In this document: in pieces, positions 6,926-60,549 of the stretch | Layout of the letters: each line of letters opens with the position of its first letter | Position numbering within the stretch: the stretch's first letter is position 1 | Origin: Halichondria panicea | Taxonomy: Eukaryota; Porifera; Demospongiae; Suberitida; Halichondriidae | Assembly: GCF_963675165.1 (NCBI RefSeq) | Contig: NC_087390.1 | Span: 1,569,501 to 1,633,500 of the forward strand | Length of the DNA: 64,000 bases | Direction of reading: 5' to 3' | Made by a program: the position numbers and the translations under genes | The notes under the pieces: generated by a model | Databases searched by the model: none | What the model was told of the DNA's origin: nothing | Seen by the model: the letters and a program-made list of their open reading frames with translations, nothing else

Positions 6926-9900
6926 ATGAAGATGACATCTCAGAGACATGCCCGTTATCTCTCAATTGATCTGGACAACGATGTTACCCTGGTTTTCCGT
7001 AAGCCTAGTTGGCAGCTCAGAGCCAGCCTTGCCTCTGTGTTGATCACCCCTGTCCTCTACCAACTCTACCTCATTATGGTCACCATCAGATACATACTCT
7101 TCTTACAAACTTTTTCCTGTGAGTCAGTGAAGCATACTCACCAATAATTGCATAACATTTCTTATCATACACTTTTGGTATAATTTTACAGAGCATTATT
7201 ACGGGGCATAGGCCACTAAAGATCAGTTGTAAACAGCCATTAGTGCATTGCTTGGTATTCACGGAATGACCACAATTGTGATTTCATATATTTTACATTT
7301 TACGTATAAAATTATGTGTACTTTCTAGTCTCGCGGACTGAAAGAGAGTCTGGCCAATTTCACCGCAGAGTTGTGTTGACCTATGCCACAAATGTCGTGG
7401 TGCTCTAAGTGGTTGATAAGTGTTTGACTGTAGTAAGTTGTGAAACTGCACAGCTGCAGGCTTAGCTTTAATTATATGGTTTCACATGCACATCCGTCCT
7501 CTAACCACTAACCACTTATCAATGCAAACAGCCACTTAGACAGCTGCACAACACAAGTAGCTCATGTGTAATTTGCCAGACGATATGATATATCGGCTGG
7601 TCCACGAGACTAAGTTACAGCTACATGTGTATTTATAGTTAAACGTAGATAAGAGTAAAAGTGTTGAACTGCTAGTAACAGCATTTGCCCTGTATTGGTC
7701 ACCACTTGATAGTCATCAGTACTAATTAGCAATACTTCCCAGAACAGACCACAGTTTACTCAAGAACACTTAACAGTTTACTCAACTGAATGTTTTGCAG
7801 TATCGAACTTTATGTGTAGAAAATAAAATATGGACACTACTCCAGCTTTATATTGTAGGTGCTTATGCTAATCTGGGTGTGGCTACTTCGGGGTTTATTG
7901 TATCACGTGGCGAATGAAGAAGAAAAGTTAATTGTATGTTTTACTCTTGCATACATGCAGAGGTGGAAGCATTCTTGGTGCACTACTTACTGGTCAACAG
8001 AGATCTAGGAAGCTAGAGAGTGTCACTGTGCTAGTTTGTAGTAGTCTACCGTAGAAACTGGATTATTAGCGCTTACTCGACTATACAGAGCATAATTATT
8101 ATACGGGGCATAGGCCACAATGTAATTATACTTAAAGGGTCAGTTTTAAATACCGTATAGAGGGTGATTTTTGTGGGACAACATATTTTTGGTTTTCCGT
8201 GGTTGAAGGTCTGAATGAATATATTATCCATGAATGAAGCGACCTTGCCTACCTTTGCAAGTTCAACCACGAAAATATTACCTATGAAATGTCTTAATAA
8301 TTATTGCTGAACCACAAATATTTTGTCCCCCGAAAATTACCCGCTATACAGTAGGCATTAGTGCATTGCTTGGTATTCACGGAGTCATGACCACAATTGT
8401 GATGTCACACCACATGAATATATTTATGCAACTCTACACAGCTCCCCCACGTCCTGCTTGCCCTGTGGTTGACTTGAGTTGGACTGGAGTGTTTCCTTGT
8501 GAGCTGGGATGGAGGGGGAGTGCACTGGCCGTTCTCATTATGTCAGCTGTGCTTATCACCTGCTACTCACTCATCACTGCCTGCTTGGTGAGATGGAACC
8601 CTCGGAAACAATGGAACTCAACCACATCAGGTAATCAATTATATATTTACTGCTACAATAATTATAAACGTCACTCTTACTTTTTAGTTTTTGATACTCA
8701 AGAAAAGCCGACCAAGTTCCAAGTGAGAGTTCAGAGCACTAATCGACTGATGTTGCCCCCCACTCTCAGTCTGTGTATACTGTTACTGATATTCCGCTTA
8801 CTGTTACAGTCAGGAGATGTTGAAGCAAACCCTGGACCAACGCTTAGTAAGCAGTGTCTCAGTCTTATGTATGTATATAATGTACAAGTTGCTCCAGCTA
8901 TTTTATAGAACATACATGCACGAACCATGTGTACGACATTGTACTTATTATTTGTTTTGTAGCCTCAATTCTGACTCTCCGTGATTTGAATTCTGTTTAC
9001 AAGAACTTGATAAAAGCCGCTGGAAACTGGTTCAACTTGGGACTTGATCTGGGATTAGGCTTTGACATCCTTAATAATATCAGTGATAAACATCGAGACA
9101 ATCAAACCTGTCTACGTGACATGATAGCTGCTCGCTTGAAGACTGGCCCTCTTACCTATTCTGAAATATGTCAGAGTCTCAGAGCATCAACAGTTGATCG
9201 AAATGATGTCGCTGAGGCTATAGAGGGGACATGTACAGGTATGAATAGTAGCATTTCTACTGCAGCCTATAAAGAATGTAACTATGAATAGTCATGAGGA
9301 TAACTTAGACCACGATAACTATCTATAATTATTACCACAGCCTAGAGCCAGAAATGTAATTTGTTCAATCGGACAATTGTTATAGCATCCAATTACTTAC
9401 TTTCAGATGAGGATACTTCACATATGAAGCCGAAATTGTCCACAACGACTCCTGAACCAACCAGTGAGTTAGCTAATCGGTAGTTTATGTGGTGATATAG
9501 AGGCATTTGTTCATGTAAGACTTTGACTTTTGGATTTCTGTGCATTTTTTTTTATAAGAAAGGTTGGGCTCAGGCACATTTGTTGTATTTCTCACTGTTT
9601 ACTTAGTTTGGAGGGTCCATTATTGAAGATTCCACTGTATTATTACCTTCACTTCATGATTATTCTTTTATACTGTAGAATCCAAATCCGATAATCGTTC
9701 CACCATCCAACCAGATGAAGCAATAGGAATTTATCGATCATACTTAACTAGTATTTACGATACAAGATCCCTCCCTGCTGATGACAAATATCCTCTCCAG
9801 TGCGTTAAGCATTTTGTTAACCTAACATGTGCTGATGTAAGTAAACATTTATCCAGAGAGGAAATCAAAGAGTCTTGGTCAGAAATAGTTCAAGGCAAGC

Positions 9901-12788
9901 TGGATAAATTTCCAAGAGAGAGAATCACAATGGACCAGATAGTTTCCAAAGTAGAGGGCAAATTCTCTAAACTAGTTGTCATTAAAGGGGCTCCTGGAGG
10001 AGGTAAGACGACTTTGTCATGGGAGCTGTGCAGACGATGGGCTAATGGTGAAGTTTGGACAGAGTACTCCCTCGTTGTATTGCTCCGACTTCGAGATGAG
10101 AATATTCAGGAAGCTGTAGAATTAGTCGATCTATTTCAATGTGAAGATACTGATGATTCCAAAAGTGTTTATTCTATTATCCGAAAGAACCATGGGCAGG
10201 GCATACTTTTCATTTTGGAAGGCCTGGATGAATTGACACCATCCCTTAGAGAAAAAGACTCCATATTTATGAAGCTAATAACCGGACGTCTTCTGCCAGC
10301 TAGTACCGTTCTTGTTACCACTAGGCCCTGGGCTGTATGCGATCTACCTGTTACTTGTAGCTCAAGAGTTGATCAGTTCATCGAAATCTTAGGTTTTTCT
10401 GGCGAACAAATTAAAGAGTACATTGATCTAATGATCAAAAATCGAGAGGCTCCACCAGAACTACGTGAATACATTAACTCTAATCCACATATATCTAGTG
10501 CAATGTATAACCCTCTTCATGCCAGAATTGTAGTTGATGTTTACAAAAAAAATTGTCACAAAAAAAGCAGCGTCTTTCCTAGCACAACAACTGAACTATA
10601 CACTGCATACTGTCAAGTTTTAATTGAAAGATATTTACATGACAAACCAGAGAGTGATTGGAGTGACGAGCTTAGTGAGTTACCTTGGTCACTTCAGGTA
10701 CATTTTGATAAACTCTGCCAAATTGCGTACAATGGAATAACAAAAGAAAAACAACAGTTGGTTTTTTTCAAGGAAGATGTTGTTGATACTAACACACTTG
10801 GATTCATGAACAGTGTACATCCTTTATATAAGAAAAGCAACAGTTCTCCATCTTACAATTTCCTTCATCTAACACTTCAAGAGTTCCTCGCTGCATTTTA
10901 CGTCTGGAAAAATAACACCCCACACGAGCAGTTGATCTTGTTTGAAACAAAGACTGATGATGGATCATACAAGATGATTCTATTGTTTTTAGCTGGATTG
11001 ACTAAACTGAATGACCCATGGACACAGTGTGTACTTTCAACTCCTTTTGTGTACTATGAGAAAGGATCGTCAAAAGCCGAGAGAATGTGTAGTAGATTCT
11101 CAAGTGATCGAATTCTTTGGATCTATGAAAGCCAAAATGTGCAAGCCATGAAGGACATGTATTGTAATGTGCTGTATATACTACTGCTATATTATGAGAC
11201 AATTGATCATTTTGCACTTGGTTATGTTGTAGCTTCTGCTCATTTCAAAGTAACTGTAATGGACATGTTCACGTTTAATGAAAATAATGTGGATGGATCA
11301 ATGATATTAGCAGGAATCAACAAAGTTTTGCCTTCTTTTACTCTAAGTGTAAGGCATCTGACAATGTCTACCACATTCAAGATTCCATCTGCTTGGCATA
11401 CACTCACTGATAGGATACTACCAGAATTAGAAAGCGTCACTATCAGTATTGACGATATATTTGATGGGCCTGAGGTTCCATGTACATTAAAAATATTTGA
11501 CACTATACAGCTATCTCCAAACTTAAGTGTTGTAGAGCTAGATTTTGGCATCTCAAGAGACACTGTGATACGAATACTTGATATTTTGAAGCCAAAACAC
11601 TGCTTGAAAGTTTTGAAATGTGCTCAAGTATCGCCAGCTGATGAAGAGTTGTTGTCTGACTTCATTGCACATTCTAGTATTGAAATGTTGGTGATACATT
11701 TGGTTCGAGCGCTTTCTATTGGTACCTCACCCATCACAGATGCTAAACATTGGTGTATTTCAATTGAATTGAACGTGACTGAGTTAAAAAGGAACAACAC
11801 GAAAATCTTGCCACATTTGCTGTCTGAAATTTCATTTACCAATAACGATCCAAGAAGAATGTTTACAAAAAAAGAGTCAAAAACCAAAAACTTAATTTCA
11901 ATATTAAGCCACTGGAAACTAAGCTTACAATATCTGCGATGCTCTTCCCATCTTCACTTGACTCCCACACAATCTGAGCAGCTTTTTAGTACTCTACTCA
12001 ATTGTCCGATACTTAAAGAACTCGATATCCAAAGTGAAATAAAGGGCCGATTTGAATATTTCTGTACCCCCCTGCAGCACTTGCAATCACTAACTTTGGA
12101 TTGTCGTGATAATGCCTGTGAAGTTTTACGTTCTCTCAAAGACAATCGATTACATTCCATTAAAAGCCTTAAACTGATATGTAACTTTGACTGCTTTTTT
12201 GATGAAGCTATTGGTGAGTATCTACAGACTGACACATCTCTAGAGGAATTGACACTGCATTATATTGATTTCGAAAGTAGCCCGAGTCATTTAGAGCAGG
12301 GACTGCAAGTTAACACATGTCTAACTAAGCTAACTATTTTACCTCATATTAGTTATGATGAATCGCTTGATTATGATTATGGTTTCGAAACGGTTGAACT
12401 GGCCCAAATGTTTCATACAACTCTACAATTCATTGAACTTATGTTTTGTAAGCAGTTTCCACCGGATCTACTACCCGTTTTGGAAGCATTGGGAGAAAAC
12501 AATACAGTTAAACACCTGAAACTCCGTCTGTGTGTGCCACCATTAGAACATTTTATACCGTACACTGTTACCACTGAAGAGGCTGAAGCTGTTGGTAATG
12601 TGTTAGCCAAGAACAAGACTCTAGAGGTGTTTTACCTCAATGTTGAGATCATTGAGTGCTCCCCAATTGTCAGGGGGCTGTTTGAAAACAAAACACTGAA
12701 ACAATTCGGCACTTCTAATAATACAAAAAAAAACATTGTCACATGTCCCGAGTACATTGATGTCAGACAAAGAATTGTGTTTATTTAG
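6926..12788 (+). CDS. NLR1: membrane leader - 2A - Death - NACHT - LRR receptor
   Basis: Predicted intracellular innate-immune receptor with an unusual N-terminal extension. Exons: 6926-7118, 8442-8630, 8688-8846, 8963-9238, 9407-9463, 9679-12788. All introns are phase 1; about 1327 codons. Exon 1 starts MKMTSQRHARYL and has a hydrophobic segment (ASVLITPVLYQLYLIMVTI); exon 2 has another (ALAVLIMSAVLITCYSLI); exon 3 a third (LSLCILLLIFRLLLQ) followed at once by SGDVEANPGP, a 2A motif that splits the chain before Pro178. Exon 4 is a Death-fold domain (WFNLGLDLGLGFDIL... ends ...AEAIEG). Exon 5 is a short Ser/Thr/Pro linker. Exon 6 holds NACHT (Walker A GAPGGGKTT about residue 395, Walker B FILEGLDEL, sensor STVLVTTRPWA), a helical region and divergent leucine-rich repeats to the TAG. 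Fully open. Confidence 0.85.
7327..7612. mobile_element. Probable inverted-repeat element in NLR1 intron 1
   Basis: TAGTCTCGCGGAC...TCTGGC at the left is mirrored by GCCAGAC...GTCCACGAGACTA at the right. Nested internal inverted words (GTGGTTGATAAGTG / CACTTATCAA) lie between. No matching empty site is available. Confidence 0.45.
8151..8353. mobile_element. TACCGTATAG-type inverted-repeat element in NLR1 intron 1
   Basis: Starts TACCGTATAGAGGGTGATTT and ends AATTACCCGCTATACAGTA, imperfect inverted repeats about 203 bp apart. Same family as 33368-33595. It lies 89 bases before the exon 2 acceptor. Confidence 0.6.
8816..8839 (+). other. 2A translational-recoding motif DVEANPGP in NLR1
   Basis: The codons read D-V-E-A-N-P-G-P, an exact fit to the 2A consensus D(V/I)ExNPGP, preceded by a hydrophobic run and SG. 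In known 2As the ribosome fails to form the Gly-Pro bond and resumes at Pro. An in-frame ATG at 8750 lies 29 codons before the break, so a short signal-like product is also possible. Confidence 0.85.
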
Positions 12789-13112: not shown

Positions 13113-13253
13113 CTATTGCATGTTCACAAAGTTCTGGATGAGGTTGAGTGCTCTCTCCGGCTGGTCAAACGGGAGAATGTGCCCACCCCCTCTCACGACC
13201 ACCTGCATAAACTTGTTCACTGTCCTCACACACCCGGCAACATCATCTCCTAT
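13113..13253 (-). pseudogene. CPVL: CPVL-type serine carboxypeptidase, last exon only
   Basis: C-terminal exon of an S10 serine carboxypeptidase (lysosomal/secretory exopeptidase family). The protein reads DDVAGCVRTVNKFMQ, VVVRGGGHILPFDQPE, then ALNLIQNFVNMQ and stop. GGGHILPFDQP contains the catalytic His. Against the 41568-41717 copy it lacks nine bases (residues VWK) next to the acceptor. No other carboxypeptidase exon lies upstream (13254-16000): minisatellite and an unrelated gene fragment follow. An isolated dead fragment. Confidence 0.8.
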
Positions 13254-13261
13254 CTGTGAAG

Positions 13262-14735
13262 GGAGAAATGTGTGTGTGGGGGTTAGGGTTAAGGTTAACC
13301 CGAACATAACAAAATTAGAAACTACTTTAATGTGTGTGTGTGTGTGTGGGGGGGGCCGGGTGAGAACAAGAATATGTGTGTGTGGGGGGGGGTGAGAACA
13401 AGAATATGTGGGTGTGTGTGGGGTGGGGGTGAGAACAAGAAATGTGTGTGTGTGGGGGGGGTGAGAACAAGAAATGTGTGTGTGTGTGGGGGGGAGGGAT
13501 GAGAACAAGAAATGTGTGTGCGTGTGTGGGGGGTGAGAACAAGAAATGTTTGTGTGTATGTGTGTGGGGGGTGAGAACAAGAAATGTGTGTGTGTGTGGG
13601 AGGGGGGGGTGAGAACAAGAAATGTGTGCGTGGGGGGGGGGGGGTGAGAACAAGAACAGTTTGTGTGCATGTGTGTGTGTGTGGGGGGGGTAAGAACAAG
13701 AGATGTGTGTGTGTGTGGGGGGGGGGTGAGAACAAGAAATGTTTGTGTGTATGTGTGTGGGGGGTGACAACAAGAAATGTGTGTGTGTGTGGGGGGGAGG
13801 GATGAGAACAAGAAATGTGTGTGTGTGTGTGTGGGGGGTGAGAACAAGAAATGTGTGCGTGGGGGGGGGGGTGAGAACAAGAAATGTGTGTGTGTGGGGG
13901 GGGTCAGAACAAAAATGTGTGTGTGTGTGTGGGGGGTTAGAACAAGAAATGTGTGTGTGTGTGTGTGGGGGGGGGGGTGAGAACAAGAAATGTGTGTGTG
14001 TGGGAGGGAGGGATGAGAACAAGAAATGTGTGTGTGTGTGTGTGGGGGGGGGGGAGAACAAGAAATGTGTGTGTATGTGTGTGTGTGGGGAGGGGTGAGA
14101 ACAAGAAATGTGTGTGTGCGCGTGTGGGGGGTGAGAACAAGAAATGTGTGTGGGGGGGGTGAGAACAAAAAATGTGTGTGTGTGTGGGGGGGGGGGTGAG
14201 AACAAGAAATGTGTGTGTGTGTGTGGGGGGGGGGGGTGAGAACAAGAAATGTGTGTGTGTGGGGGGGGGATGAGAACAATAAATGTGTGTGTGTGTGGGG
14301 GGTGAGCTAGAACAAGAAATGTGTGTGTGTGTGTGTGTGTGGGGGGGGGGGGGTGAGAACAAGAAATGTGTGTGTGTGTGGGGTGAGAACAAGAAATATG
14401 TGTGTGTGTGTGGGGTGAGAACAAGAAATGTGTGTGTGTGTGTGTGTGTGTGGGGGGGTGAGAACAAGAAATGTGTATGTGTGTGTGTGTGTGTGTGTGT
14501 GGGGGGGTGAGAACAAGAAATGTCTGCGTGTGGGGGGGGTGAGAACAAGAAATGTGTGTATGTGTGTGGGGGGTGAGAACAAGAAATGTGTATGTGTGTG
14601 TGTGTGTGTGTGGGGGGGGGGTGAGAACAAGAAATGTCTGCGTATGGGGGGGTGAGAACAAGAAATGTGTGTATGTGTGTGGGGGGGGGGTTAAAACAGG
14701 AAATGTGTGTGTGTGTGGGGGGGGGGGTGAGATGT
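13262..14735. repeat. GTGAGAACAAGAAATGTGTG...GGGG minisatellite, ~1.47 kb
   Basis: Dozens of tandem units of roughly 26-40 bases, each GTGAGAACAAGAAATG followed by a variable (TG)n and a G run. The plus strand is strongly G-rich and could form quadruplexes. Long open frames on both strands (MCVCVGG... and HTHTHFLFSPP...) are translation artefacts of this repeat. It sits in the CPVL intron before the last exon. The same repeat is expanded at 41725-42020 and 47105-47775, and is a single unit near 29160. Confidence 0.95.
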
Positions 14736-14740
14736 ACAAA

Positions 14741-14970
14741 GTGGGTCCTCACTGAACACTAGTTAACCACTAGTCCTACAGCTGTGTACCCAGTGGGTCC
14801 ACATTGTACACTAGTTAACCACTAGCCCTACAGCTGGTTACCCAGTGGGTCCACACTGAACACTAGTTAACCACTAGCCCTACGGCTGTGTACCCAGTGG
14901 GTCCACATTGTACACTAGTTAACCACTAGCCCTACAGCTGTGTACCCAGTGGGTCCACATTGTACACTAG
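14741..14970. repeat. 52-bp tandem repeat, ~4.4 copies
   Basis: Units start at 14741, 14793, 14845, 14897 and 14949, each beginning GTGGGTCC and containing CTAGTTAACCACTAG. The first four units alternate ACTGAACAC and ATTGTACAC variants, hinting at a 104-bp higher-order period. Confidence 0.9.
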
Positions 14971-22183: not shown

Positions 22184-25100
22184 ATGAAGATGACATCTCA
22201 GAGACATGCCCGTTATCTCTCAATTGATCCGGATGATGATGTTACCCTGGTTTTCCGTAAGCCTAGTTGGCAGCTCAGAGCCTGCCTTGCCTCTGTGTTG
22301 ATCACCCCTGTCCTCTACCAACTCTACCTCATTATGGTCACCATCAGATACATACTCTTCTTACAAATTTTTTCATGTGAGTCAGTAAAGCTACTCACCA
22401 ATAATTGCATAACATTTTTTATTTAATATACACTTTGGTGTAATTATACTGAGCATATCACGGGGCATAGGCCACAATTATATACTTGAAGGACAGTTTT
22501 AAACAGCCATTAGTGAGTGCCGTATCCATGCAGTTAGGGGCTCATTGTGCTCACGTACCTAAGCTCAACAGTAACTTACTGGATAGCTGGGAGCTGTATG
22601 AGCCTGAGCCTGCATTGCACTAGAGCTATAGCTAGCTAGCTAGCAAGAGCTTTTATACTGCGGATTTCACGGAGACCACACCTTCATGCATGCAGATATC
22701 CAAGGTTCCTGTTTTGTGACAGCATGCTCTATAATTTTATTCACCCAAGTTACAACCATCACCAGCAGAGGAGCAGAGGGCCTGATCACACTACCTGAAT
22801 AATTATACAATGGGTTTGATAGCCTGATTTGAGAGCACAATGATATACTATCACCAGAACATCTGCATCAAAACCATTGTATAAGATGTTCTGGGGATAG
22901 TATATCATTGTGCTCTCACTATATAGGCCTTGCCCAATTATTCAAATTTTGCCTAGTCTCCAAGTCTCATGCATTGTACCTTATAATTCGTCTTTACCAT
23001 TAGTCTCAATAAAAATCATCAACGAGAGTTATACTGCAACATCACTGACGCTTCTATATAATCTTCTAAGGAACTATTATTGGTTAAAGAAATCTTAGAA
23101 AATAGTCAACTGATCCAGTACTACTACTAGCACCTTCCATACGTATTATATACTCAGTATAGCCACTACTATACTAGCCAGTCTAGCCAGTGGTGATCCA
23201 GGAATGTTGAGAGGGAGGTTTCAAAACAGTTAATTTTAATAAAAAAATAAAATAAAAAAAAGCAATGAGCATGCGCATTAGAGAGCCCTTCCCACATATA
23301 GAAATCAGCCTAGTAACTACAGATGGTGATCATTCAAGCTGAGTTGCTAGCTGGGAAGTTGATCTCCAATGTGTTAATTCTTGTGTGAAAGGGGGGTTCC
23401 ATGGAACCCATGGAACCTGTCTGGATCCGCCACTGCTAGCCACCACGTGTGCTCAGAAGTGTAAAGGTCAACAATTAGCATTGGTCATGCTTCTATAAAT
23501 ACTTTCTACCAAAATTTGATAAAAATTGCCTAATAGGCTAATATTTTTTGCCTATTAGGCTGGCATAATGCTCAATGCTCCACGCTAGCATAAAATTGGG
23601 CAAGCTCTTACTATAGCCTATAGTGAGAGCACAATGATATACTAAAACCATTGTATTATTAAAGACAGCATGCAGTACGATTACACAGAAAAATCGACTG
23701 ACAAGACTATGTCTTCTGCACATAAGTGATACACTGTGAAAAATACCTGTAAATATTGACTATTGTTCCCTGTAATGTGCAGTAAAGCGTGGGCGTAGGC
23801 GGAATCCAAACATTTCGCGCTATTCCGCGACCTGAGCACCCTCGTACCATTATTCCTAGAAAAACTTGGTATACAGAGACTCTCGTTAATTCGGTCACCC
23901 TTGGGACCATGCAGCTTGGCCGGAATAGCGAGGTGGCTGCAGCTCAGGAAATAGCCACAGCTTATACCTCGAATCTAATGACTACTTTTGCGGTTCTTGT
24001 CTCGAGAATAATGTAGGATAATGTTCTCTATTTAAGTGTAATCCAATTTTATTTGCTAAACCACACCCAAAATGTCATATCCGGCCGTAATATACGTATA
24101 AAATTACATAGAAAACCTTGTTTGGGACAGCCAGCACTGGCCGGTAAACGGAATAGCGAGTGGCCGTACTTCAGGGTGATTTTTGTGCAGTAAACATATA
24201 GCTAGCATTCCGTGCAAAGCCAAATGGCCGGTATATCGAGGTGGCCGTACTTCAAGAGCCGGAATAGCTAGAGTCTACTGTACATGGAATCTCATGACCA
24301 TCCACAATAGTGATGTCACAGCACATGAATATATTTATGTAACTCTACACAGCTCCCCCACGTCCTGCTTGCCCTGTGGTTGACTTGAGTTGGACCGGAG
24401 TGTTTTCTTGTGAGCTGGGATGGAGGGGGAGTGCACTGGCCGTTCTCATTCTGTCAGCTGTGCTTATCACCTGCTACTCACTCATCACTGCCTGCTTGGT
24501 GAGATGGAACCCTCGGAAACAATGGAACTCAACCACATCAGGTAATCAATTATATATTTACTGCCACAATAATTATAAACGTCACTAGTTTTTGATACTC
24601 AAGAAAAGCCTACCAAGTTTCAAGTGAGAGTTCAGAGCACTAATCGACTGATGTTGCCCCCCACTCTCAGTCTGTGTATACTGTTACTGATATTCCGCTT
24701 ATTGTTACAATCAGGAGATGTTGAAGCAAACCCTGGACCAACGCTTGGTAAGCAGTCTCTTTATGATGCATATAAAATTAAACTATGTGTATGCCATTGT
24801 ATTTAGGCTCTATTCTGACTATTGATGATTTGAATTCTGTTTACGAGAAACTGTTAGAAGCCGCCGAAAACTGGTTCTTCCTGGGACTTTCCCTGGGATT
24901 AGGTCATGGCACCCTCAAGAATATAACAGATGACTATCGCGGGAACAGGAAATATCTATGTGAAATGATAGCTGCTCGCTTGAAGACCGGCCCTCTCACC
25001 TATTCTGAAATATGTCGGAGTCTCAGATCACCAACAGTTGATCGGAATGATGTCGCTGAGGCTATAGAGGAGGCATGTACAGGTATGAATAGTCATGAGG

Positions 25101-28100
25101 CTAACATCAATGGATAGTTCACAACCTACCTAGTCACGAACGTATGTACTTCATAGCATCCAATTACTCACTTTTTCAGATGACGATACTTCACCTGGGT
25201 CATCTAAGAGGAAAAAATTATCCACAACGACTCCTGTACCAACTAGTAAGTTAGCTAATCTGTAGTTTATGTGAGTGGTGATAGAGTAGGTACATCTCAA
25301 GGATTGCTGTGATAAAAGCGGTTTGTGCATTGCTCAGGTTTTGAGGGCCAATTATTTGAGATTCTATTACTCGCTTCATGAATATTTTAGTATTTATAGT
25401 TTATTCTTTTATTATAGAACCCAAATCCGATGATCGTTCTACCATCCAACCAGATGAAGCAATAGGAATTTATCGAGCATACTTAACTAGTATTTATGAT
25501 ACAAGATCCCTCCCTGCTGACGAAAAATATCCTCTCCAGTGTGTTAAGCATTTTGTTAACCTAGAATGTGCGGATGTAAGTAAACATTTATCGAGAAAGA
25601 AAATGGAAGAGTCCTGGTCAAAAATAGTTAAAGGCGAGCTGGATAGATTTCCTAGTAAGAGAATCACAATGGATCAGATAGCTTCTAAAGTAGAGGGAAA
25701 ATTCTCTAAACTAGTTGTCATTAAGGGGGCTCCTGGAGGAGGTAAGACGACTTTGTCATGGGAGCTGTGCAGACGATGGGCTAATGGTGAAGTTTGGACA
25801 GATTACTCCCTCGTTGTATTGCTCCGACTTCGAGATGAGAATGTTCAGAAAGCTGTAGAATTAGTTGATCTATTTCAATGTGAAGATACTGATGATTCCA
25901 AGAATGTTTATACTATTGTTCGAAAGGATCATGGGCAGGGCATACTGTTCATTTTGGAAGGCTTGGATGAGTTACCACCATCCTTTAGAGAAAATGATTC
26001 CATATTTATGAAACTAATAACCGGACGTCTACTTCCAGCCAGTACTGTGCTTGTTACCACTAGGCCCTGGGCTGTGTGTGAACTACCTGTTACTTGTAGC
26101 TCCAGAGTTGATCAGTTCATTGAAATTTTAGGTTTTTCTTCCAAACAAATTCATGAGTACATTGATCTAATGATCAAAGATGGGGCTCCACCAGGACTAC
26201 GTAAATATATTGACTCTAATCCACGTATCTCTAGTGCAATGTATAACCCTCTTCATGCCAGAATTGTAGTTGAAGTTTACAGAGAAAACCACGAGAATAG
26301 CAATAGCATAATCCCCAACACAACAACTGAACTATACACCGAATACTCTCAAATTTTGATTGAAAGATATTTAGACAGTGATTGGAGTGGTGAGCTTAGG
26401 GAGTTACCTTCGTCACTTCAGGTACATTTTGATAAGCTCTGCCAAATTGCGTACAATGGAATAACAAAAGAAAAACAACAATTGGTTTTCTTCAAGGAAG
26501 ATGTTGTTGATGCTAGCACTACACTCGGATTCATGAACAGTGTACACCCTTTATATAAATCCACAAAGAAAAGCAACAGTTCTCCATCTTACAATTTCCT
26601 TCATCTAACACTTCAAGAGTTCCTCGCTGCATTTTACATCTGGAAAAACAACACCCCACACGAGCAGTTGATCTTGTTTGAAACAAAGGCTGATGTTGGA
26701 TCTTACAAGATGATTCTATTGTTTTTAACTGGATTGACTAAACTGAATGACCCATGGACGCAGTGTGTACTTCCCACTCCTTACTTGTACTATGAGAAAG
26801 GATCGTCAAAAGCCGAGAGAATGTGTAGATTCTCAAGGGATCAAATTATGTGGATCTATGAAAGCCAAAATGCGCAAGCCATGAAGGACTTGTATTGTAA
26901 TGTGCTGTATGAACTACTGCTAGATGATCCGACAGTTGATCAGTTTGCACTTGGTTATGTTGTAGCTTCTGCTCATTTCAAAGTAACTCAAATGGACATG
27001 TTCGAGTTTAATAAAAGATATGCTTTTGATGTGGATAGATCAATGATATTAGAAGGAATCAACAAAGTTTTGCCTTCTTTTACTCTAAGTGTAAGGCATC
27101 TGAAAGTGTCTACCGCATTCAGGATTCCATCTGTTTGGTATACACTCATTGATAGGATACTACCAGAATTAGAAAGACTCAGTTTTGGATCAAGAGATAT
27201 TGACGATAAATTTGTTGGGCCTGAGGTTCCATGTCCATTAAAAATATTTGACACTATACAGCTATCTCCAAACTTAAATGTTTTAGAGCTAGATTTTGGT
27301 ATCTCAAGAGACACACTGTGATACGAATACTTGATATTTTGAAGCCAAAACACTGCTTGAAAGTTTTGAAATGTGCTCGAGTATCGCCAGCTGATGAAGA
27401 GTTGCTGTCAGACTTCATTGCACATTCTAGTATTGAAATGTTGGTGATACATTTGGTACATTCGAGCGATCTCTTCACAGATACTGATGATTGGTGTATT
27501 TCAATTGGATTGAACGTGACTGAGTTAAAAAGGAATAATACAAAAATTGTACTGTCTAAACATTCATTTACTATAAAAAGAATGTTTTCAATAGAAGATA
27601 TTAAATACCTAATTTCAATATTAGGCCACTGGAAACTAAGCTTACAATATCTGCGATGCTCTTCCGATGTTAAGTTTACCCCCGGACAATCTGAGCAACT
27701 ATTTAGTACTCTACTCAATTGTCCGATACTTAAAGAACTTGATATCGAAAGTGAAATAAAGGGCCAATTTGAATATTTCTGTACCCACCAGCACTTGCAA
27801 TCACTAACTTTGTCTGGTCCTGATAATTCCTGTGACGTTTTACGTTGGCTTAAAGACAATCGATTACATTCCATTAAAAGCCTTAAACTGATATGTAACT
27901 TTGACTGCTATTTTGATGAAGCTATTGGTGAGTATCTACAGACTGACACATCTCTAGAAGAATTGTCACTGCATTACATTGATTTCAAAAGTAGCCTGAG
28001 TCATTTAGTGCAGGGACTGCAAGTTAACATATGTATAGTGAAACTAATGATTTTACCTGATATTACTATTACAAGGGCCTTAGATTATGATCTCGGAATG

Positions 28101-35818: not shown

Positions 35819-38800
35819 ATGAAGATGACATCTCAGAGACATGCCCGTTGTCTCTCAATTGATCTGGACGATGATGTTACCCTGGTTTTCCATAAACCTA
35901 GTTGGCAGCTCAGAGCCAGCCTTGCCTCTGTGTTGATCACTCCTGTCCTCTACCAACTCTACCTCATTATGGTCACCATCAGATACATACTCTTCTTACA
36001 AACGTTTTCCTGTAAGTCAGTGGGAAGCATACTCACCAATAATTGCATAACATAACTTGTCATAGAGTAGAGAAATTTGGAGTTGTATGCTTGTGTTGAC
36101 AGAGATACTGCAACAGTTTGTTAATTGACTAAATTTAAGTGTGGGTGCCAAGTAAAATTCATTGTTAAAACAAGAGTAACTGTATATAGGCAGAATTATA
36201 TACTAGGCAGAATAATCACTATAATTATTTTATTATCAGATATTATGTTAGAACAGCCAATTAAGGTTAAAATTAATCACTAGCAATGGTGTCACGTAAT
36301 ACCCCCCTGTCTCATAATACCCCCTGTCTCCCCCTATCTCATAATACCCCCCTGTCTCATAATACCCAAACCACTTTAAACACTAAATTAATGCTAGCAT
36401 TAGCTGCAAACAAAGCACTGTCACTAATGTTTTTGCTTATTATGCAGACATAATTATAACAATGCATATTGACCATAATTATAGTAGTTAGTGAACAGGT
36501 TATTTAGCTGATTACTGCAAGACATTAACTGGTCAGAAACATTAATTTTATAGAGGTCTCATAATACTGACTTGTACTCTACTCATATTACGGGCTACAA
36601 TTACACTTAAGGAACAGCCATTAGTGTATTGCTTAATTGGTATTCACGGAATCTCATGACCCACAATTGTGATGTCACATGCAGCACATGAATATCATTA
36701 TTTATGTAACTCTACATAGCTCCCCCACGTCCTGCTTTCCCTGTGGTTGACTTGAGTTGGACCGGAGTGTTTCCTTGTGAGCTGGGATGGAGGGGGAGTG
36801 CACTGGCCGTTCACATTCTGTCAGCTGTGCTTATCACCTGCTACTCACTCATCACTGCCTGCTTGGTGAGATGGAACCCTCGGAAACAATGGAACTCAAC
36901 CACATCAGGTAATCAATTATATATTTACTGCCACAATAATTATAAACATCACTCTTATTTTCTAGTTTTTGAAAAGCCGACCAAGTTCCAAGTGAGAGTT
37001 CAGAGCACTAATCGACTGATGTTGCCCCCCACTCTCAGTCTGTGTATACTGTTACTGATATTCCGCTTACTGTTACAGTCAGGAGATGTTGAAGCAAACC
37101 CTGGACCAACGCTTGGTAAGCAAATGTCTCTTTATGTATGCATATAAAACTTGTATTAAACCATGTGTATGCCATTGTATTTTTGTTTTTGTTTTTTGTA
37201 GGCTCTATTCTGACTATCGATGATTTGAATTCTGTTTACGAGAAATTGATAGAAGCCGCTGGAAACTGGTTAGACCTGGGACTTTCCCTGGGATTAGGTC
37301 ATAGCACCCTCAGTAATATAAAAGATGAACATCGAGACAAGAACCAAACCTGTTTACGGGAAATGTTAGCTGTTCGCTTGAAGACTGGCCCTCCACTCAC
37401 CTATTCTGACATATGTCGGAGCCTCAGAGCACGAACAGTTGCACGGAATGATGTCGCTGAGGCTATAGAGGAGGCATGTACAGGTATGAATAGTGATGAG
37501 GTTAACCTCGACCACACTATAACTGTAGATAGAATTAGTATACTTATACGTAACTATATGTAGTTACCGCAGCCTAAAGCCAGGAATGTAATTTACTATT
37601 ATAATACTTCAATAGGACAATTTTATCCAATTACTTACTTTAATTTAGATGAGGATACTTCACCTGGGCCACCTATGAAGCCAAAACTGTCCACAACGAC
37701 TCTTGGACCAACCAGTGAGTTAGCTAATCAGTAGTTTGTGTGAGTGCATGGATTGAGAAAAGGCAATCTCAGGATTACCGCGCATTTTTAAAAATATATA
37801 TTTCCACAGCGACTCCTAGACCAACCAGAAGTTAGTTAATTGGTATAGTTTGTGTGATAGAGTATGTAAGAAAATTTGGGATAGAATTATACAGTACTGT
37901 TTGGAGTCGCACTCTTTTAACCTATATACGTACGTAGTGTACTGAAGATTCCACTATAATTATTGTTTATCATTCGCTTCATGTTTATTCTCAGAATTCA
38001 AATCTGATAATCGTTCCACCATCCAACCAGATGAAGCAATAGGAATTTATCGATCATACTTAACTAGTATTTACGATACAAGATTCCTCCCTGCTGATGA
38101 CAAATATCCTCTCCAGTGTGTTAAGCATTTTGTTAATCTAGAATGTGCAGATGTAAGTAAACATTTATCGAGAAAGGAAATTAAAAAGTCTTGGTCAGAA
38201 ATAGTTCAAGGCGAGCTGGATAGATTTCCTAGAGAGTCAATTACAATGGACCAGATAGCTTCCAAAGTAGAGGGTAAATTCTCTAAACTAGTTGTCATTA
38301 AAGGGGCTCCTGGAGGAGGAAAGACGACTTTGTCATGGGAACTGTGCAGACGATGGGCTAATGGTGAAGTTTGGACAGATTACTCTCTCGTTGTATTGCT
38401 CCGACTTCGAGATAAGAATGTTCAGGAAGCTGTAGAATTAGTTGATCTATTTCAATGTGAAAATACTGAAGCTTCCAAAAATATTGTTGCTACTACTATC
38501 ATACAAAATCATCATGGGCATGGTATTCTTTTCATTTTAGAAGGCCTGGATGAGTTGCCACCATCCCTTAGAGAAAATGACTCCATATTTATGAAGCTAA
38601 TAACCGGACGTCTTCTGCCAGCTAGTACCGTGCTTGTTACCACTAGACCCTGGGCTGTATGTGATCTACCTGTTACTTGTAGCTCAAGAGTTGATCAGTT
38701 CATCGAAATCTTAGGTTTTTCTTCCGAACAAATTCAAGAATACATTGATCTAATGATCAAAGATGGGGCTCCACCACAACTACGTGAATATATTGACTCT

Positions 38801-41143
38801 AATCCACGTATCTCTAGTGCAATGTACAACCCTCTTCATGCCAAAATTGTAGTTGAAGTGTACAGAGAAAACCATGAGAATAGCAATAGCATAATCCCCA
38901 ACACAACAACTGAACTATACACCGAATACTCTCAAATTTTGATTAAAAGATGTTTAGAGAATGATTGGAGCGATGAGCTTAGTGAGTTACCTTCGTCACA
39001 TCAGGTACATTTTGATAAGCTCTGCCAAATTGCGTACAATGGAATAACAAAAGAAAAACAACAGTTGGTTTTTTTCAAGGAAGATGTTGTTGATGCTAGC
39101 ACTACACTCGGATTCATGAACAGTGTACATCCTTTACATAAGAAAAATAACAGTTCTCCATCTTACAATTTCCTTCATCTAACACTTCAAGAGTTCCTTG
39201 CTGCATTTTATGTCTGGAAAAATAAAACCCCACACGAGCAGTTGATCTTGTTTGAAACCAAAGCTCATGATGGATCATACAAGATGGTTCTATTGTTTTT
39301 AGCTGGATTGACTAAACTGAATGACCCATGGACACAGTGTGTACTTCCAACTTCTTACTTGTACTATGAGGAAGGATCATCAAAAGCCGAGAGAATGTGT
39401 GAATTCTCAAGTGATCAAATTTTGTGGATCTATGAAAGCCAAAATGTGCAAGCCATGAAGGACTTGTATTGTAATGTGCTGTATGAACCACCGCTATATG
39501 ATGATATTGATCAGTTTGCACTTGGTTATGTTGTAGCTTCTGCTCATTTCAAAGTAATTCTAACGGACATGTTTGAGTTACATAATGGTATGGCTATATC
39601 AATGTTATTAGCAGGAATCAACAAAGTGTTGCCTTCTTTTACTCTAAGTGTAAGGCATCTGAAAATATCTACCACATTCAAGATTCCATGTTTTTGGCAT
39701 ACACTCACTGATAGGATATTACCAGAATTAGAAGGAGTCACTATCAGTAGATCAAAAGATATTGACGATGAATTTGATGGGCCTGAGGCATTAAAAATAT
39801 TTGACACCATACAGCTATCTCCAAACTTAAGTGTTGTAGAGCTAGATTTTGGCACCTCAAGAGACACTGTGATACGAATACTTGATATTTTGAAGCCAAA
39901 ACACTACTTGAAAGTTTTGAAATGTACTCGAGTATCGCCAGCTGATGAAGAGTTGCTGTCAGACTTCATTGCACATTCTAGTATTGAAATGTTGGTGATA
40001 CAATTGATACCAGAGTCACCCACAGATTGCTCACTCACCACAGAAACTAATAGTTGGTGTATTTCAATTGGATTGAACGTGACTGAGTTAAAAAGGAATA
40101 ACACAAAAATCTTGCCACAATTACTGTCTAAACATTCATTTACCAATAGCGAAGTAGAAAGGACGTTTATGAGATCAGATGTGATCTTTTCACTGTCTAC
40201 TATGAAAAATTTAATTTCAATCTTAAGCCACTGGAAACTAAGCTTACAATATCTGCGATGCTCTTACCTGGTTCAGTTCACCCCCGCACAATCTGAGCAG
40301 TTTTTTAGTACTATACTCAATTGTCCGATATTTAAAGAACTCGATATTCAAAGTGAAATAAAGGGCATATCTAGATATATCTTTAACCCACAGGACTTGC
40401 AATCACTAATTTTGCGTTGTTTTGATTATGCCTGTAAGGTTTTACATTCTCTCAAAGACAATCGATTACATTCCATTAAAAGCCTTAAACTTATGTGTTA
40501 CTTTGACTGCGATTTTGATGAAGCTATTGGTAAGTATCTGCAGACTGACACATCTCTAGAAGAATTGACACTGAATTTTATTTATTTAAAAAGTAGCCCG
40601 AGTAGCATATGCATGAGTCATTTAGTGCAGGGACTGCAAGTTAACACATGTCTAACTAAGCTAACTATTTCACCTCATCATAATTTTATAATTAATATTA
40701 AAAAAAGGGACTCAGATTATGATCTCAGAACGCTTGAACTGGCCCAAATGTTTCAACTTAATACAACTCTACAATTCATTGAACTTACGGTTGATATGAA
40801 CTTGCTAATGGATCTACAACTCGTTTTGGAAGCATTGAGAGAAAACAATACAGTTAAACACCTGATACTCCGCCTGTATGTGACATCATTTACACCGTAC
40901 GCTGTTACCACTGAAGAGGCTGAAGCTGTCAGTAATGTGTTAGCCAAGAACAAGACTCTAGAGGTGTTTCACCTCGATGTTGAGATCACTGAGTGCTCCC
41001 CAATTGTCAGGGGGCTCTTGGAAAACAAAACACTGAAAGAATTCGGCACTTCTAAGAATACAAAAAAGAACATTGTCGCATGTCCCGAGTATCTTGATGT
41101 CAGACGAAGAATTTTGTTTTTGAACATTACCCCTTTTCATTAA
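35819..41143 (+). CDS. NLR3: membrane leader - 2A - Death - NACHT - LRR receptor
   Basis: Intact paralogue, about 1342 codons before the stop. Exons: 35819-36011, 36720-36908, 36966-37115, 37202-37483, 37649-37714, 37995-41143, all phase 1. Exon 3 is nine bases shorter than in NLR1 (VFEKPTKFQ against VFDTQEKPTKFQ). The 2A break falls before Pro175. Death domain: NWLDLGLSLGLGHSTLSNI. NACHT: Walker A GAPGGGKTT, Walker B FILEGLDELPP, sensor TVLVTTRPWAVCDLP; a winged-helix/helical region follows (YNFLHLTLQEFLAAFYVWK). LRR-like C-terminus: TLQFIELTVDMNLLMD, NNTVKHLILRLYV, LAKNKTLEVFHLDVEI. Intron 5 contains a second, partial copy of the exon 5 tail near 37808-37830. Likely a cytosolic sensor released from its membrane leader by 2A. 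Confidence 0.87.
36299..36367. repeat. Short tandem repeat ATACCCCCCTGTCTCATA
   Basis: About three to four units of a ~20-base C-rich word in NLR3 intron 1. The rest of that intron (36012-36719) is AT-rich with no coding sense. Confidence 0.7.
37085..37108 (+). other. 2A motif DVEANPGP in NLR3
   Basis: Same octapeptide and same exon position as in NLR1. The upstream hydrophobic stretch (LCILLLIFRLLLQSG) is unchanged. Confidence 0.85.
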
Positions 41144-55630: not shown

Positions 55631-58600
55631 ATGAAGATGACATCTCAGAGACATGCCCGTTATCTCTCAATTGATCTGGACAACGATGTTACCCTGGTTT
55701 TCCCTAAGCCTAGTTGGCAGCTCAGAGCCTGCCTTGCCTCTGTGTTGATCACCCCTGTCCTCTACCAACTCTACCTCATTATTGTCACCGTCAGATACAT
55801 ACTCTTCTTACAAACTTTTTCCTGTAAGTCAGTGAAGCATACTCACCAATAATTGCATAACATTTCTTATCATAATTATACACTTTGGTATAATTATACC
55901 GAGCATATTACGGGACATAGGCCACATATAGTTTATAAAGGTCAGTTTTAAACAACCTTAGTGCATTGCTTGGTATTCACGGAGTCATGACCACACTTGT
56001 GATGTCACAGCACATGAATATAATTATTTATGCAACTCTATACACAGCTCCCCCACGTCCTGCTTGCCCTGTGGTTGACTTGAGTTGGACCGGAGTGTTT
56101 CCTTGTGAGCTGGGATGGAGGGGGAGTGCACTAGCCGTTCTCATTCTGTCAGCTGTGCTTATCACCTGCTACTCACTCATCACTGCCTGCTTGGTGAGAT
56201 GGAACCCTCGGAAACAATGGAACTCAACCTCATCAGGTAATCAGTTATATATTTACTGCCACAATAATCACTCTTACTTTTTAGCTTTTGAAAAACCGAC
56301 CAAGTTCCAAGTGATAGTTCAGAGTACTAATCGACTGATGTTGCCCCCCACTCTCAGTCTGTGTATACTGTTACTGATATTCCGCTTACTGTTACAATCA
56401 GGAGATGTTGAAGCAAACCCTGGACCAACGCTTGGTAAGCGGTGTCTCCTTATGATACATAATGTACACAATGACATTGCTCCTCAGAGAACATGCATGC
56501 ATAAACCATGTGTATGACATTGTGTGCTTATCATTTGGTTGTAATTTTTGTAGGCTCAATTCTGACTCTCGGTGATTTGAATTTTGTTTACAAGAACTTG
56601 ATAAAAGCTGCTGGAGACTGGTTAGACCTGGGACTTGATCTGGGATTAGATCTTGGCACCCTCAAAGATATAAAAGATGAGTGTCACAGGAACAAGGACT
56701 GCTTACGTGAAATGATATCTACTCGCTTGAAGACTGGCCCTCTCACCTATTCTGACATATGTCAAAGTCTCAGAGCACCAACAGTTGCACGAAATGATGT
56801 CGCTGAGGCTATAGAGGAGGCATGTACAGGTATAAATAGTCATGAGGCAACCTCGACCAGCATTTCTATGGATAAATATCAGTATACCACAGCCTAAAGC
56901 GTAGCTTAGATATGTAGGACAATTGTAAGGCTACTAGCAATATAGACCACACTATAAGCATTTCTATGAATAGTTAACAGTACTTAACTATGTGAATGGA
57001 TAGTTCACCTCATCACGAACACTTATATTATCTTTATGTACTTCAGTCAATTGTATATATAATTGTAGCAGATGACGATACTTCACCTGGGCCATCTAGG
57101 AAAAGATTATCCACAGCGACTCCTGGACCAACCAGTGAGTTAGCTAATCGGTAGTTTGTGTGAGTGGTGATAGGGTAAAGGACAAATCTCAGGGATTGCT
57201 GCATTTGTTCATGTAAGACTCCGAAAGTTGCAATTGGTTGTGTGGATAGTGATAGAGTACATTTTTTTGGGGATAGCAGTCGTAATCTTTTTACCTATAC
57301 ACATATATATATACTGTACTGAATATTCTACTGTATTATTTATCTTTCGCTTCATGTTTATTTTCAGAATCCAAATCCGATAATCATTCCACCATCCAAC
57401 CAGATGAAGCAATAGGAATTTATCGAATATACTTAACTAGTATTTACAATACAACATCCCTCCCTGCTGATGACAAGTATCCTCTCCAGTATGTTATGCA
57501 TTTTGTTAATCTAGAATGTGCGGATGTAAGTAAACGTTTATCGAGAAAAGAAATGGAAGAGTCCTGGTCAGAAATAGTTCAAGGCAAGCTGAATAGATTT
57601 CCTAGAGAGTCAATTAAAATGGACCAGATAGCTTCCAAAGTAAAGGGCAAATTCTCTAAACTAGTTGTCATTAAAGGGGCTCCTGGAGGAGGTAAGACGA
57701 CTTTGTCATGGGAACTGTGCAGACGATGGGCTAATGGTGAAGTTTGGACAGATTACTCCCTCGTTGCATTGCTCCGACTTAGAGATAAAAATGTTCAGGA
57801 AGCTATAGAATTAGTTGATCTACTTCAATGTGGAGATATTGATGTTTCTAAAAGTGTTTATACTATTATCCGAAAGAATCAAGGGCAGGGCGTTCTTTTC
57901 ATTTTGGAAGGCCTGGATGAGTTGCCACCATTCTTTAGAGAAAATGATTCCATATTTATGAAGCTAATAACCGGACGTCTTCTGCCAGCTAGTACCGTGC
58001 TTGTTACCACTAGGCCCTGGGCTGTATGTGATCTACCTGTTACTTGTAGCTCAAGAGTTGATCAGTTCATTGAAATTTTAGGTTTTTCTTTGGAACAAAT
58101 TCAGGAGTACATTGATCTAATAATCAAAGATGGGGCTCCAGCAGAACTACGTGAATACATTAACTCTAATCCACGTATCTCTAGTGCAATGTACAACCCT
58201 CTTCATGCCAGAATTGTAGTCGAAGTGTACAGAGAAAACCATGAGAATAGCAATAGCTGCATAATCCCCAACACAACAACTGAACTATACACTGAATACT
58301 GTCAAATATTGATTAAAAGATGTTTAGAGAGTGATTGGAGTGGTGAGCTGAGTGAGTTACCTTCATCACTTCAGGTACATTTTGATAAGCTCTGCCGAAT
58401 TGCATACAAGGGAATAACAAAAGAAAAACAACAATTGGTTTTCTTTAAGGAAGATGTTGTTGATACTAAAACACTCGGATTCATGAACAGTGTACATCCT
58501 TTACATAATAAAAGCAACAGTTCTCCATCTTACAATTTCCTTCATCTAACACTTCAAGAGTTCCTCGCCGCATTTTACATCTGGAAAAATGAAACTCCAC

Positions 58601-60549
58601 ACGAGCAGTTTATTTTGTTTGAAACAAAGGCTCTTGATGGATCATACAAAATGATTCTATTGTTTTTAGCTGGATTGACTAAACTGAATGACCCATGGAC
58701 ACAGTGTGTACTTCCATCTCCTTACTTGTACTATGAGGAAGGATCGTCAAAAGCCGAGAGAATGTGTAAATTCTCAATTGATCAAATTCTGTGGATGTAT
58801 GAAAGCCAAAATGTGCAAGCCATGAAGGACTTGTATTGTAATGTGCTGTATGAACCACCGCTAAAATTTAATGATAAGACAATTGATCAGTTTGCACTTG
58901 GTTATGTTTTAGCTTCTGCTCATTTCAAAGTAACTGTAATGGACTTTAGTAAAGGACTTCATGAAGTTGTGGATAAATCTGAAATGATATTAGCAGGAAT
59001 CAAAAAAGTTTCGCTTTCTTTTACTTTAAGAGTAAAGCATCTGATAATGTCTAACACATATGTGATTCCTCCTGATTGGTGTACACTCAGTGATAAGATA
59101 CTACCAGAATTAGAAAGAGTCACTATCAGTACCGGTATGGAAAGAATAAAGTGGTATAGCCCTGAGATTCCACATGCATCAACAATATTTGACGCTCTAC
59201 AACAATCTCCAAACTTAAGTGTAGTAGAGCTAGATCTTGGCATTTTAAAAGACACTGTAAAACAAATACTTCACATTTTGAAGCCAAAACACAGCTTGAA
59301 AGTTTTGAAATGTACTCAAGTATTGCCAGCTGATGAAGAGTTGTTGTCTGACTTTATCGCACATTCTAGCATTGAAATGTTGGTGATACATTTGGTACCA
59401 AATTCTAAAAGTACGCGCTCACCCCCCACAGATACTGAAAATAATTGGTGTATTTCAATTGGATTGAACGTGACTGAGTTTAAAAGGAATAAAACGAATA
59501 TTTTACCACATTTACTGTTTGAACATCCATTTACTGTTAACGGAGGAACGTTTCCAACAGACGATGCACAAAAACTGTCTACTATCACAAACTTAGTTTC
59601 AATCTTAAGCCACTGGAAACTAAGCCTACAATATCTGCGATGCACTATGCGATGTCTTCAGTTGACCCCCGGACAATCTGAGCTGTTTTTTAGGACTCTA
59701 CTCAATTGTCCGATGCTTAAAGAAGTTGATCTCAAAAGTGAAATGAAAGGCCAATTTGAATATTTCTGTATCCCCCAGCACTTGCAATCACTAACTTTGC
59801 ATTGTCCTGATAATGCCTGTGAAGTTTTACGTTATCTCAAAGACAATCGATTACATTCCATTAAAAGCCTTGAACTTACATGTCACATTGACTACGATTT
59901 TGATGAAGCTATTGGTGAGTATCTACAGACTGACACATCTCTAGAAGAATTGACACTGTGTTATAATTTCCAAAGTAGCATTAATCATGTAGTGCAGGGA
60001 CTCCAAGTTAACACATGTCTAACTAAGCTAACAATTTCACCTTGTAAAACTGTCTCATTTGTTCTCGCAAGGCTTGATACTATTGAACTGGTCAAAATGT
60101 TTCAGCTTAATACAACTCTACAATTCATTGAACTTGTGGTTCGTAAACTGTCGCCAAATGATTTACTACCCGTTTTGGAAGCATTGAGAGAAAACAATAC
60201 AGTTAAAAATCTGACACTCGGTCTGTATTTTATAGACGCTACAAAACGTGAGGGCCAAAATGTTCCATCAGTATGTACACGTGAGTACACTGTTACCACT
60301 GAAGAAGCTGAAGCTGTTGGTAATGTGTTAGCCAAGAACAAAACTCTAGAGGTGTTTCACATCATTGCTGAGATCATTGAGTGCTCTTCAATTGTCAGGG
60401 GGCTATTGGAAAACAAAACACTGAAAGAATTCGGCACTTCTGAGAAAACAAAAAAGAATATCGTCACATGTCCCGAGTACGTTAATATCAGACGAAGAAT
60501 TGTATTTTGGGGCGTTCCCCTTTTGTACTATATTAATGACTCTTGGTAG
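55631..60549 (+). CDS. NLR4: membrane leader - 2A - Death - NACHT - LRR receptor
   Basis: Intact and most diverged paralogue, about 1350 codons. Exons: 55631-55823, 56048-56236, 56285-56434, 56554-56829, 57072-57134, 57368-60549, all phase 1. The leader is nearly identical to the others (MKMTSQRHARYLSIDLDNDV). 2A break before Pro175. Death domain: DWLDLGLDLGLDLGTLKDI. NACHT: GAPGGGKTT, Walker B VLFILEGLDELPPF, TVLVTTRPWAVCDLP. The LRR half differs most from the other copies (VIPPDWCTLSDKILPELERV, LVVRKLSPNDLLPVLEAL) and has a longer final insert (IDATKREGQNVPSV). Its neighbours are an EAF exon upstream and a cyclophilin remnant, not CPVL, downstream, so it closes the NLR array on this side. 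Confidence 0.87.
56404..56427 (+). other. 2A motif DVEANPGP in NLR4
   Basis: Conserved in the most diverged paralogue together with the preceding ILLLIFRLLLQSG, indicating that the motif is maintained. Confidence 0.85.

Follow-up and report, generated by a model that had tools for sequence, protein, structure and literature searches.

The window analysed here is a stretch of 64,000 bases of the sponge Halichondria panicea (positions 1569501-1633500 of NC_087390.1, termed C14, in an assembly of 131 Mb). Four paralogous genes were found in it (Table 1). In agreement with a preliminary description of this DNA, each copy begins with a leader of ~177 residues and three hydrophobic segments, and the leader ends in SGDVEANPGP, two codons and one base before a phase-1 junction with the exon of a Death-fold domain, with a NACHT domain after it. 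All junctions of copy 1 were GT-AG and of phase 1, and the open frame comprised 1327 residues. From the ATG to the NPGP there were 178 codons, and the predicted products are a leader ending at Gly177 and a receptor beginning at Pro178. The NACHT-LRR part of copy 2 (25360-28538) consisted of two overlapping frames, split near 27.3 kb; its leader, 2A and Death exons were open.

Table 1. Features of the four receptor gene copies, with positions counted from the first base of the window
Feature	Position	Strand	Evidence
Copy 1 exon 1: ATG, N-terminus, hydrophobic segment 1, phase-1 donor	6926..7118	+	
Copy 1 exon 2: PVVDLSWTGVFPCELGW loop and hydrophobic segment 2	8442..8630	+	splicing, hydropathy, selection tests
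Copy 1 exon 3: basic stretch, hydrophobic segment 3, 2A, two codons and one base	8688..8846	+	
Copy 1 SGDVEANPGP 2A/StopGo element; predicted separation Gly177/Pro178	8810..8839	+	
Copy 1 exon 4: Death-fold domain	8963..9238	+	
Copy 1 exon 5: linker	9407..9463	+	
Copy 1 exon 6: NACHT domain, then a C-terminal part with LRR assigned by eye	9679..12788	+	PF05729 1.1e-19
Copy 2 exon 1	22184..22376	+	
Copy 2 exon 2	24353..24541	+	
Copy 2 exon 3, 2A at 24717-24740	24589..24747	+	
Copy 2 exon 4: Death-fold domain	24807..25082	+	
Copy 2 NACHT frame between two stops, seemingly interrupted; continuation in another frame at 27252-28538	25360..27321	+	
Copy 3 exon 1	35819..36011	+	
Copy 3 exon 2	36720..36908	+	
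Copy 3 exon 3, 2A at 37085-37108; 9 bases shorter than in copy 1, in frame	36966..37115	+	start by eye, shifted AG
Copy 3 exon 4: Death-fold domain	37202..37483	+	
Copy 3 NACHT open frame (stop to stop, intron end included)	37946..41143	+	
Copy 4 exon 1	55631..55823	+	
Copy 4 exon 2	56048..56236	+	
Copy 4 exon 3, 2A at 56404-56427; 9 bases shorter	56285..56434	+	start by eye, shifted AG
Copy 4 exon 4: Death-fold domain	56554..56829	+	
Copy 4 NACHT open frame (stop to stop, intron end included)	57286..60549	+	PF05729 3.8e-19

The receptor part had been described as Death-NACHT-LRR, and the support for this assignment differed along the protein. The NACHT domain was recognised by Pfam in copies 1 and 4 (Table 1). 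Pfam reported neither a Death family in copy 1 exon 4 nor an LRR family in the two exon 6 products tested (E ≤ 0.1), so the Death fold was assigned by fold comparison and by a paralogue, and the LRR by eye. Exon 4 was modelled as a Death domain, which gives the receptor the N-terminal Death fold of an NLR. Elsewhere in the window, long repeats at 13113-14758, 41568-42202 and 46967-47931 carry His-Thr-rich FLVLTPP frames on the minus strand; in each of these regions one frame ends in what we take to be a sequence like the C-terminus of a serine carboxypeptidase.

The 2A codons of the four copies, at 8816 in copy 1 and as listed in Table 1 for the others, are all on the plus strand. The octapeptide D(V/I)ExNPGP lies in frame between two coding parts, and its upstream context is L-rich and ends in (A/S/C)G (ILLLIFRLLLQSG before the D), as judged by eye against the published motif. 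Four motifs were observed in the window against a mean of 0.03 in 100 dinucleotide-preserving shuffles, and no shuffle reached four. In the whole genome the D[VI]ExNPGP codon motif was found 116 times (the positions of 115 were read directly and the last was inferred from locus L047) and the reversed pattern 0 times; the exact 23-base motif occurred 33 times, always on C14. The 24 motif bases were identical in 27 of 27 aligned C14 copies, a biased figure because the copies had been found by the exact 23-base search. A fairer test starts from the leader of the window copies, here called class I: among the exon-2 matches listed, 45 of 47 had a canonical 2A within 700 bp downstream. The other two (L063, C14:1031150-1032000; L064, C14:3450950-3451900) read GNVEANPGP, with N at p12. 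A p12=N variant has been reported to be >95% active in another context, and D12A to abolish the activity of F2A (PMC12846837), so that not every change at p12 is tolerated.

The hydropathy profile of the copy 1 leader showed segments at residues 36-54, 96-114 and 149-167. In diverged leaders and in those of a second family, class II (see below), one to three segments were above the hydropathy threshold, and some class II leaders had a single one. Across 29 leaders, the median numbers of K+R were 5 in the N-terminus, 2 in loop 1 and 7 in loop 2; net charge differed weakly between loop 1 (median 0) and the N-terminus (median 1, range -5 to 4). No Pfam match at E ≤ 0.1 was obtained in the leader. 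A predicted fold of the leader was discarded because of its pLDDT of 38.

Between C14 and two C2 copies, the dN/dS of the leader was 0.18 and 0.12, with pS values of 0.63-0.71 that are near saturation; amino-acid identity was 56-69% per exon, the exon 3 stretch including the 2A. The value for C14 and C7 was 0.24, and those for C6 (0.46, exon 1 mis-located) and C16 (0.52, exon 1 left out) were higher; over all pairs the range was 0.06 to 0.52. Judged by the low dN/dS in diverged copies, the leader looks constrained as a protein over long times. Among 27 close C14 copies (29 minus two with exon 4 cut off), dN/dS was 0.59 for the leader and 0.63 for the Death exon, and synonymous divergence was 0.057 in leader exons 1-3 compared with 0.233 in the Death exon, suggesting homogenisation or extra constraint. 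Pairwise identities, which were used in place of MAFFT flank identities, were calculated from 150 random pairs of the 27 copies with poorly aligned columns dropped and are upper bounds for introns. The leader exons were the most alike (0.95-0.98). Introns 1 and 2 and the 5' flank followed with 0.91-0.92, and the lowest values were those of intron 3 (0.87) and exon 4 (0.86). The recent C14 leader copies have been kept alike, perhaps by conversion; given the low synonymous divergence at a dN/dS of 0.59, homogenisation may explain part of the leader conservation. Indel counts modulo 3, mostly non-multiples in exons 1, 2 and 4 and as such against coding constraint, were set aside, because the alignments had gaps at mismatches and free ends, also where the two exons had the same length.

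The leader, previously noted in the four window paralogues, was not confined to them. Exons 1-3 were found at 29 of the 33 exact C14 2A loci, with an exon 1 match beginning only at base 43 in six of them. At 11 of the 29, the projected splice border was off GT or AG owing to indels, and four of these have an in-frame RefSeq junction nearby. The remaining four of the 33, three units in L030 (C14:1232200-1241000) and one in L031 (C14:1258100-1261800), have other in-frame sequence upstream of the 2A.

L030 and L031 lack leader exons 1-2; instead, EHD-like fragments continue in frame into the 2A exon. One fragment was identified as EHD_N by Pfam (1.5e-13); a second that was tested had no Pfam match and is presumably EHD-like. 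The RefSeq model LOC135347354 (P0114) has a similar EHD-like piece, followed by a 2A (DIEANPGP), a Death-like domain and Dynamin_N.

The association of 2A with receptors was then followed over C14. Among the matches listed, a same-strand 2A within 6 kb upstream was present for 27 of 28 NACHTs at 82-100% identity and for 4 of 4 at 59-60%, compared with 0 of 15 at 38-41%; these bands leave out one C14 match at 35%, and two of the 43 2A positions used are GNVEANPGP variants. Conversely, 31 of the 43 C14 2As have a NACHT downstream within those limits. Genome-wide, 15 of the 102 NACHTs listed had a same-strand 2A within 12 kb upstream, and none had one within 12 kb on the opposite strand. On C14, then, a 2A within 6 kb upstream accompanies 31 of the 32 NACHTs listed at 59-100% identity and none of the 15 at 38-41%; it belongs to particular NLR lineages and not to all.

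RefSeq models, which are predictions, cover both the leader and other downstream domains. Nine C14 genes (LOC135347256, 306, 261, 321, 310, 244, 394, 305 and 242) have models in which leader, 2A and next exon are in frame, and eight of the nine contain the exact cores of all three leader exons. Intron 2 is retained in frame in the isoforms P0067, P0086 and P0124. Three of ten RefSeq-named matches (P0001, P0028 and P0050) are without the leader, so that leaderless transcripts may exist. A 2A was present in 7 of the 120 protein matches listed, most of the others being not RefSeq-named and possibly single-exon predictions. At the other twelve C14 2As, the models include a Roc-like GTPase (P0067 and P0101, below the Pfam cut-off), Dynamin_N (P0114) and Death (above the cut-off in P0067 and just below it in P0092). 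P0058 (ZU5-like by eye) and P0084 (Death only) belong to loci that also have a NACHT 1.2-2.4 kb downstream. At C14:600135 and C14:549660/779327, these two models join the leader and Death exon to other ends despite the downstream NACHT frame, and because of that frame they may be isoforms or merged models. On C2, protein P0126 combines a diverged leader with a CARD-like stretch and ankyrin repeats.

By position, the 116 genomic motifs fall into 45 that follow class I leader exon 2, 31 that follow another leader, characterised by WRARIGL (class II), and 40 that follow neither. The WRARIGL pattern gave 38 matches, compared with 9 for the reversed control. A 2A lay 180-396 bp downstream on the same strand in 31 of the 38, with 0 on the opposite strand and 0 upstream, and 29 of the 31 distances were multiples of three. 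Six of the seven matches without 2A, all but C1:6241435, were read: in five the frame was broken or the motif had decayed, and the sixth, L070, looks unrelated. Six loci were first read on other contigs, those on C2, C6 and C7 having the class I leader and those on C1, C5 and C15 the WRARIGL type. Exon 1 of the class I leader was not found at the C6 locus. Twenty further loci, read as pieces of ~900 bases, comprised class I and class II leaders, 2As immediately followed by Death- or CARD-like sequence, retroelements carrying PHD and endonuclease-like sequence, and long unclassified frames. EHD-like pieces stand in place of the leader at some 2A loci, and CARD-like exons were seen on C1, C2 and C7. 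The CARD-like label is tentative, because these exons had no CARD match in Pfam and their best PDB sequence match was weak (0.068, to ICEBERG, which we take to be a CARD protein).

A search with the C15 leader returned 25 proteins at E ≤ 10, three of them named Amphimedon queenslandica. The E-values were weak (1.2e-3 to 4.5) and the query contained the 2A, which makes the presence of DVELNPGP in 25 of 25 ascertainment-biased; for these reasons the matches are supportive and not independent, the WRA[SN]IGLW sequence being the more independent part. This leader precedes DVELNPGP in 24 of the 25, including two of the three Amphimedon proteins, which have WRASIGL and a 2A; in the third Amphimedon protein the 2A is only internal. 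Precomputed domains of these proteins included ankyrin in 25 and Death in three, and P0128 showed ankyrin and no Death match in Pfam. The same kind of search with the class I leader returned 11 proteins, all named H. panicea.

The sea urchin precedent to which the preliminary description had pointed is real. In Strongylocentrotus purpuratus (Roulston 2016), SpNLR2A is a 26-residue N-terminal 2A signal found in 14 of 87 NLR entries, and 2A was present in about 35% (85/241) when N-terminal regions were counted too (PMC4981915). For SpNLR2A6, whose leucine-rich stretch is comparable, the reported skipping efficiency is about 80%, and chains that stay unseparated are routed into the exocytic pathway (PMC4981915). 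The sponge copies share with this system the 2A and the leucine-rich upstream context before Death-NACHT receptors, and the two fates demonstrated there (PMC4981915), separated cytosolic and unseparated exocytic, are predicted for the sponge. In contrast to the short sea urchin signal, the sponge leader has ~177 residues and is encoded by three exons; in addition, the sponge has a further leader family, and some of its models contain other receptors. The D(V/I)ExNPGP core and the L-rich upstream motif ending in (A/S/C)G are as in StopGo/2A of RNA viruses, whereas the sponge 2A is in a spliced host gene family, close to the end of a phase-1 exon; 2A in cellular genes has been described as rare (PMC12846837). 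Putative membrane-bound NLRs have been proposed from sponge NLR models that, like the present genes, have predicted transmembrane segments (PMC12909245); unlike our account, that text contains neither '2A-like' nor 'NPGP', and a 2A between the membrane part and the receptor would change its membrane-bound reading.

It is probable that each gene is a natural two-protein unit, composed of a membrane leader released by 2A skipping and then a cytosolic receptor. A two-product mRNA, as first suggested in the preliminary description, is likely from the sequence features: the in-frame 2A, its leucine-rich context, the conservation of the leader as coding sequence in diverged copies, the RefSeq joins to Death-NACHT, and the close linkage of 2A to one NACHT lineage. 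One spliced mRNA would be read as a single frame. The ribosome would first make the leader of ~177 residues, with three hydrophobic segments and an N-terminus predicted to be cytosolic, and the leader would dock at the ER. The 2A and the third hydrophobic segment would then both occupy the exit tunnel, the Gly-Pro bond would be skipped at NPG/P, and the leader would be released as a separate membrane protein, conceivably with a function beyond targeting. Most ribosomes would continue and produce a cytosolic receptor starting with Pro, which would be Death-NACHT-LRR at these loci and a different Death- or CARD-like receptor at others. The smaller share of chains would stay unseparated as ER-targeted fusions. 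Because the leader itself is hydrophobic, its docking at the translocon might set the ratio of the products; an upstream protein in translocation can inhibit 2A in cells (PMC2978324). The preliminary description had supposed a fixed ratio, with 2A efficiency as a possible switch.

An unseparated, membrane-anchored receptor had been proposed as a minor product. Such a form is predicted, but not with an anchor that leaves the receptor in the cytosol. Membrane topology can be predicted from basic loops by the positive-inside rule, and since loop 2 before segment 3 is strongly basic, the Death-NACHT part of the read-through form should face the lumen or the outside, as in the fusion of the sea urchin.

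Other explanations were weighed against the two-protein unit. The genes might serve dual targeting of the sea urchin type only: the leader would be an extended targeting peptide that directs unseparated chains to the secretory pathway and has no job once freed. SpNLR2A6 behaves in this way in HeLa and plant cells, and segment 3 with the 2A resembles the 26-residue sea urchin signal, whose sequence was taken from a published primer (PMC4981915); the single-segment class II leaders also fit. Nevertheless, conservation between C14 and C2 extends to exons 1 and 2, which lie well upstream of the 2A (total dN/dS 0.12-0.18). Translation from a Met directly ahead of segment 3, by analogy with the sea urchin 26-mer, was rejected as a candidate, because that Met is missing in 17 of 33 C14 copies and the short form could not start there in those copies. 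We regard dual targeting only as rather unlikely. A lower probability is given to the leader exons being an optional 5' module, with alternative promoters or splicing yielding leaderless cytosolic receptors as the main form. All three leader exons are included in the RefSeq models of nine C14 genes, against which stand the leaderless P0001, P0028 and P0050, the many annotated isoforms of several genes and the intron 2 kept in frame in P0067, P0086 and P0124.

If the 2A were a fossil or inactive, the leader would stay fused and the products would be membrane-bound NLRs, as proposed for other sponges. This is quite improbable: among the 47 listed class I matches, 45 have the canonical motif and 2 GNVEANPGP, and class II copies without the 2A show, in five of the six read, a decayed frame or motif. 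On the other side are the transmembrane segments of sponge NLR models read as putative membrane-bound NLRs (PMC12909245) and the inhibition of 2A by ER translocation (PMC2978324). The 2A exon could also be left over from a non-LTR retrotransposon inserted upstream of an NLR, with tandem duplication accounting for its spread. The 2A of APE-type non-LTR retrotransposons was reportedly described by Odon in 2013. Like the present genes, these elements have a 2A near the start of a long frame, and they occur in this genome: at L056 (C1:10392250) and L053 (C3:1930950) the 2A is followed by PHD-like and endonuclease-like sequence, the Pfam search covering L056. In the window copies, by contrast, the 2A precedes a Death-fold domain and NACHT, no endonuclease or reverse transcriptase was found downstream of it, and Pfam detected no retroelement domain in the exon products. 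Moreover, two dissimilar leader families precede the 2A on several contigs, and the WRASIGL leader with 2A is present in sponge proteins outside H. panicea. A retrotransposon remnant, despite the 2A before PHD and endonuclease-like sequence at L056, has thus little probability.

Altogether, 76 2A motifs lie by position behind two conserved leader families in one animal genome, and those read were succeeded by Death- or CARD-like exons, mostly assigned by eye. If active, they would form a large natural polyprotein system in animal immunity, each receptor would gain a co-made membrane partner, and domain scans would report transmembrane NLRs where two separate proteins exist. Many natural 2A variants are available here for a comparison of efficiency. 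We tentatively propose, as a generalisation that could well go either way, that 2A is an established device of sponges for building immune receptors: one mRNA would encode a co-translated membrane partner followed by a Death- or CARD-type receptor, with at least two leader families at many loci of one genome and a related leader in Amphimedon. Modules of leader and receptor would be exchanged via phase-1 exons, EHD-like pieces replacing the leader, and translocon coupling would set the amount of cytosolic receptor. N-terminal 2A on NLRs is already known, in sea urchin. No paper naming 2A in sponge NLRs was found in a literature search that was incomplete for 2A surveys, so an earlier description is possible. 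As far as the literature searched shows, what is new is the occurrence in sponges, the long conserved leader and the second leader family, as well as models joined to other receptors and EHD-like pieces replacing the leader.

Some loci on other contigs had further features. Upstream of leader exon 2 on C6 (L038, C6:1050800-1053200), a cysteine-rich frame was judged by eye to be lectin-like. At L046 and L061 (C16:2730450 and 2739650) and at L059 (C6:3064400), long open frames contained hydrophobic stretches upstream of the 2A, and the sequence downstream of it was of low complexity.
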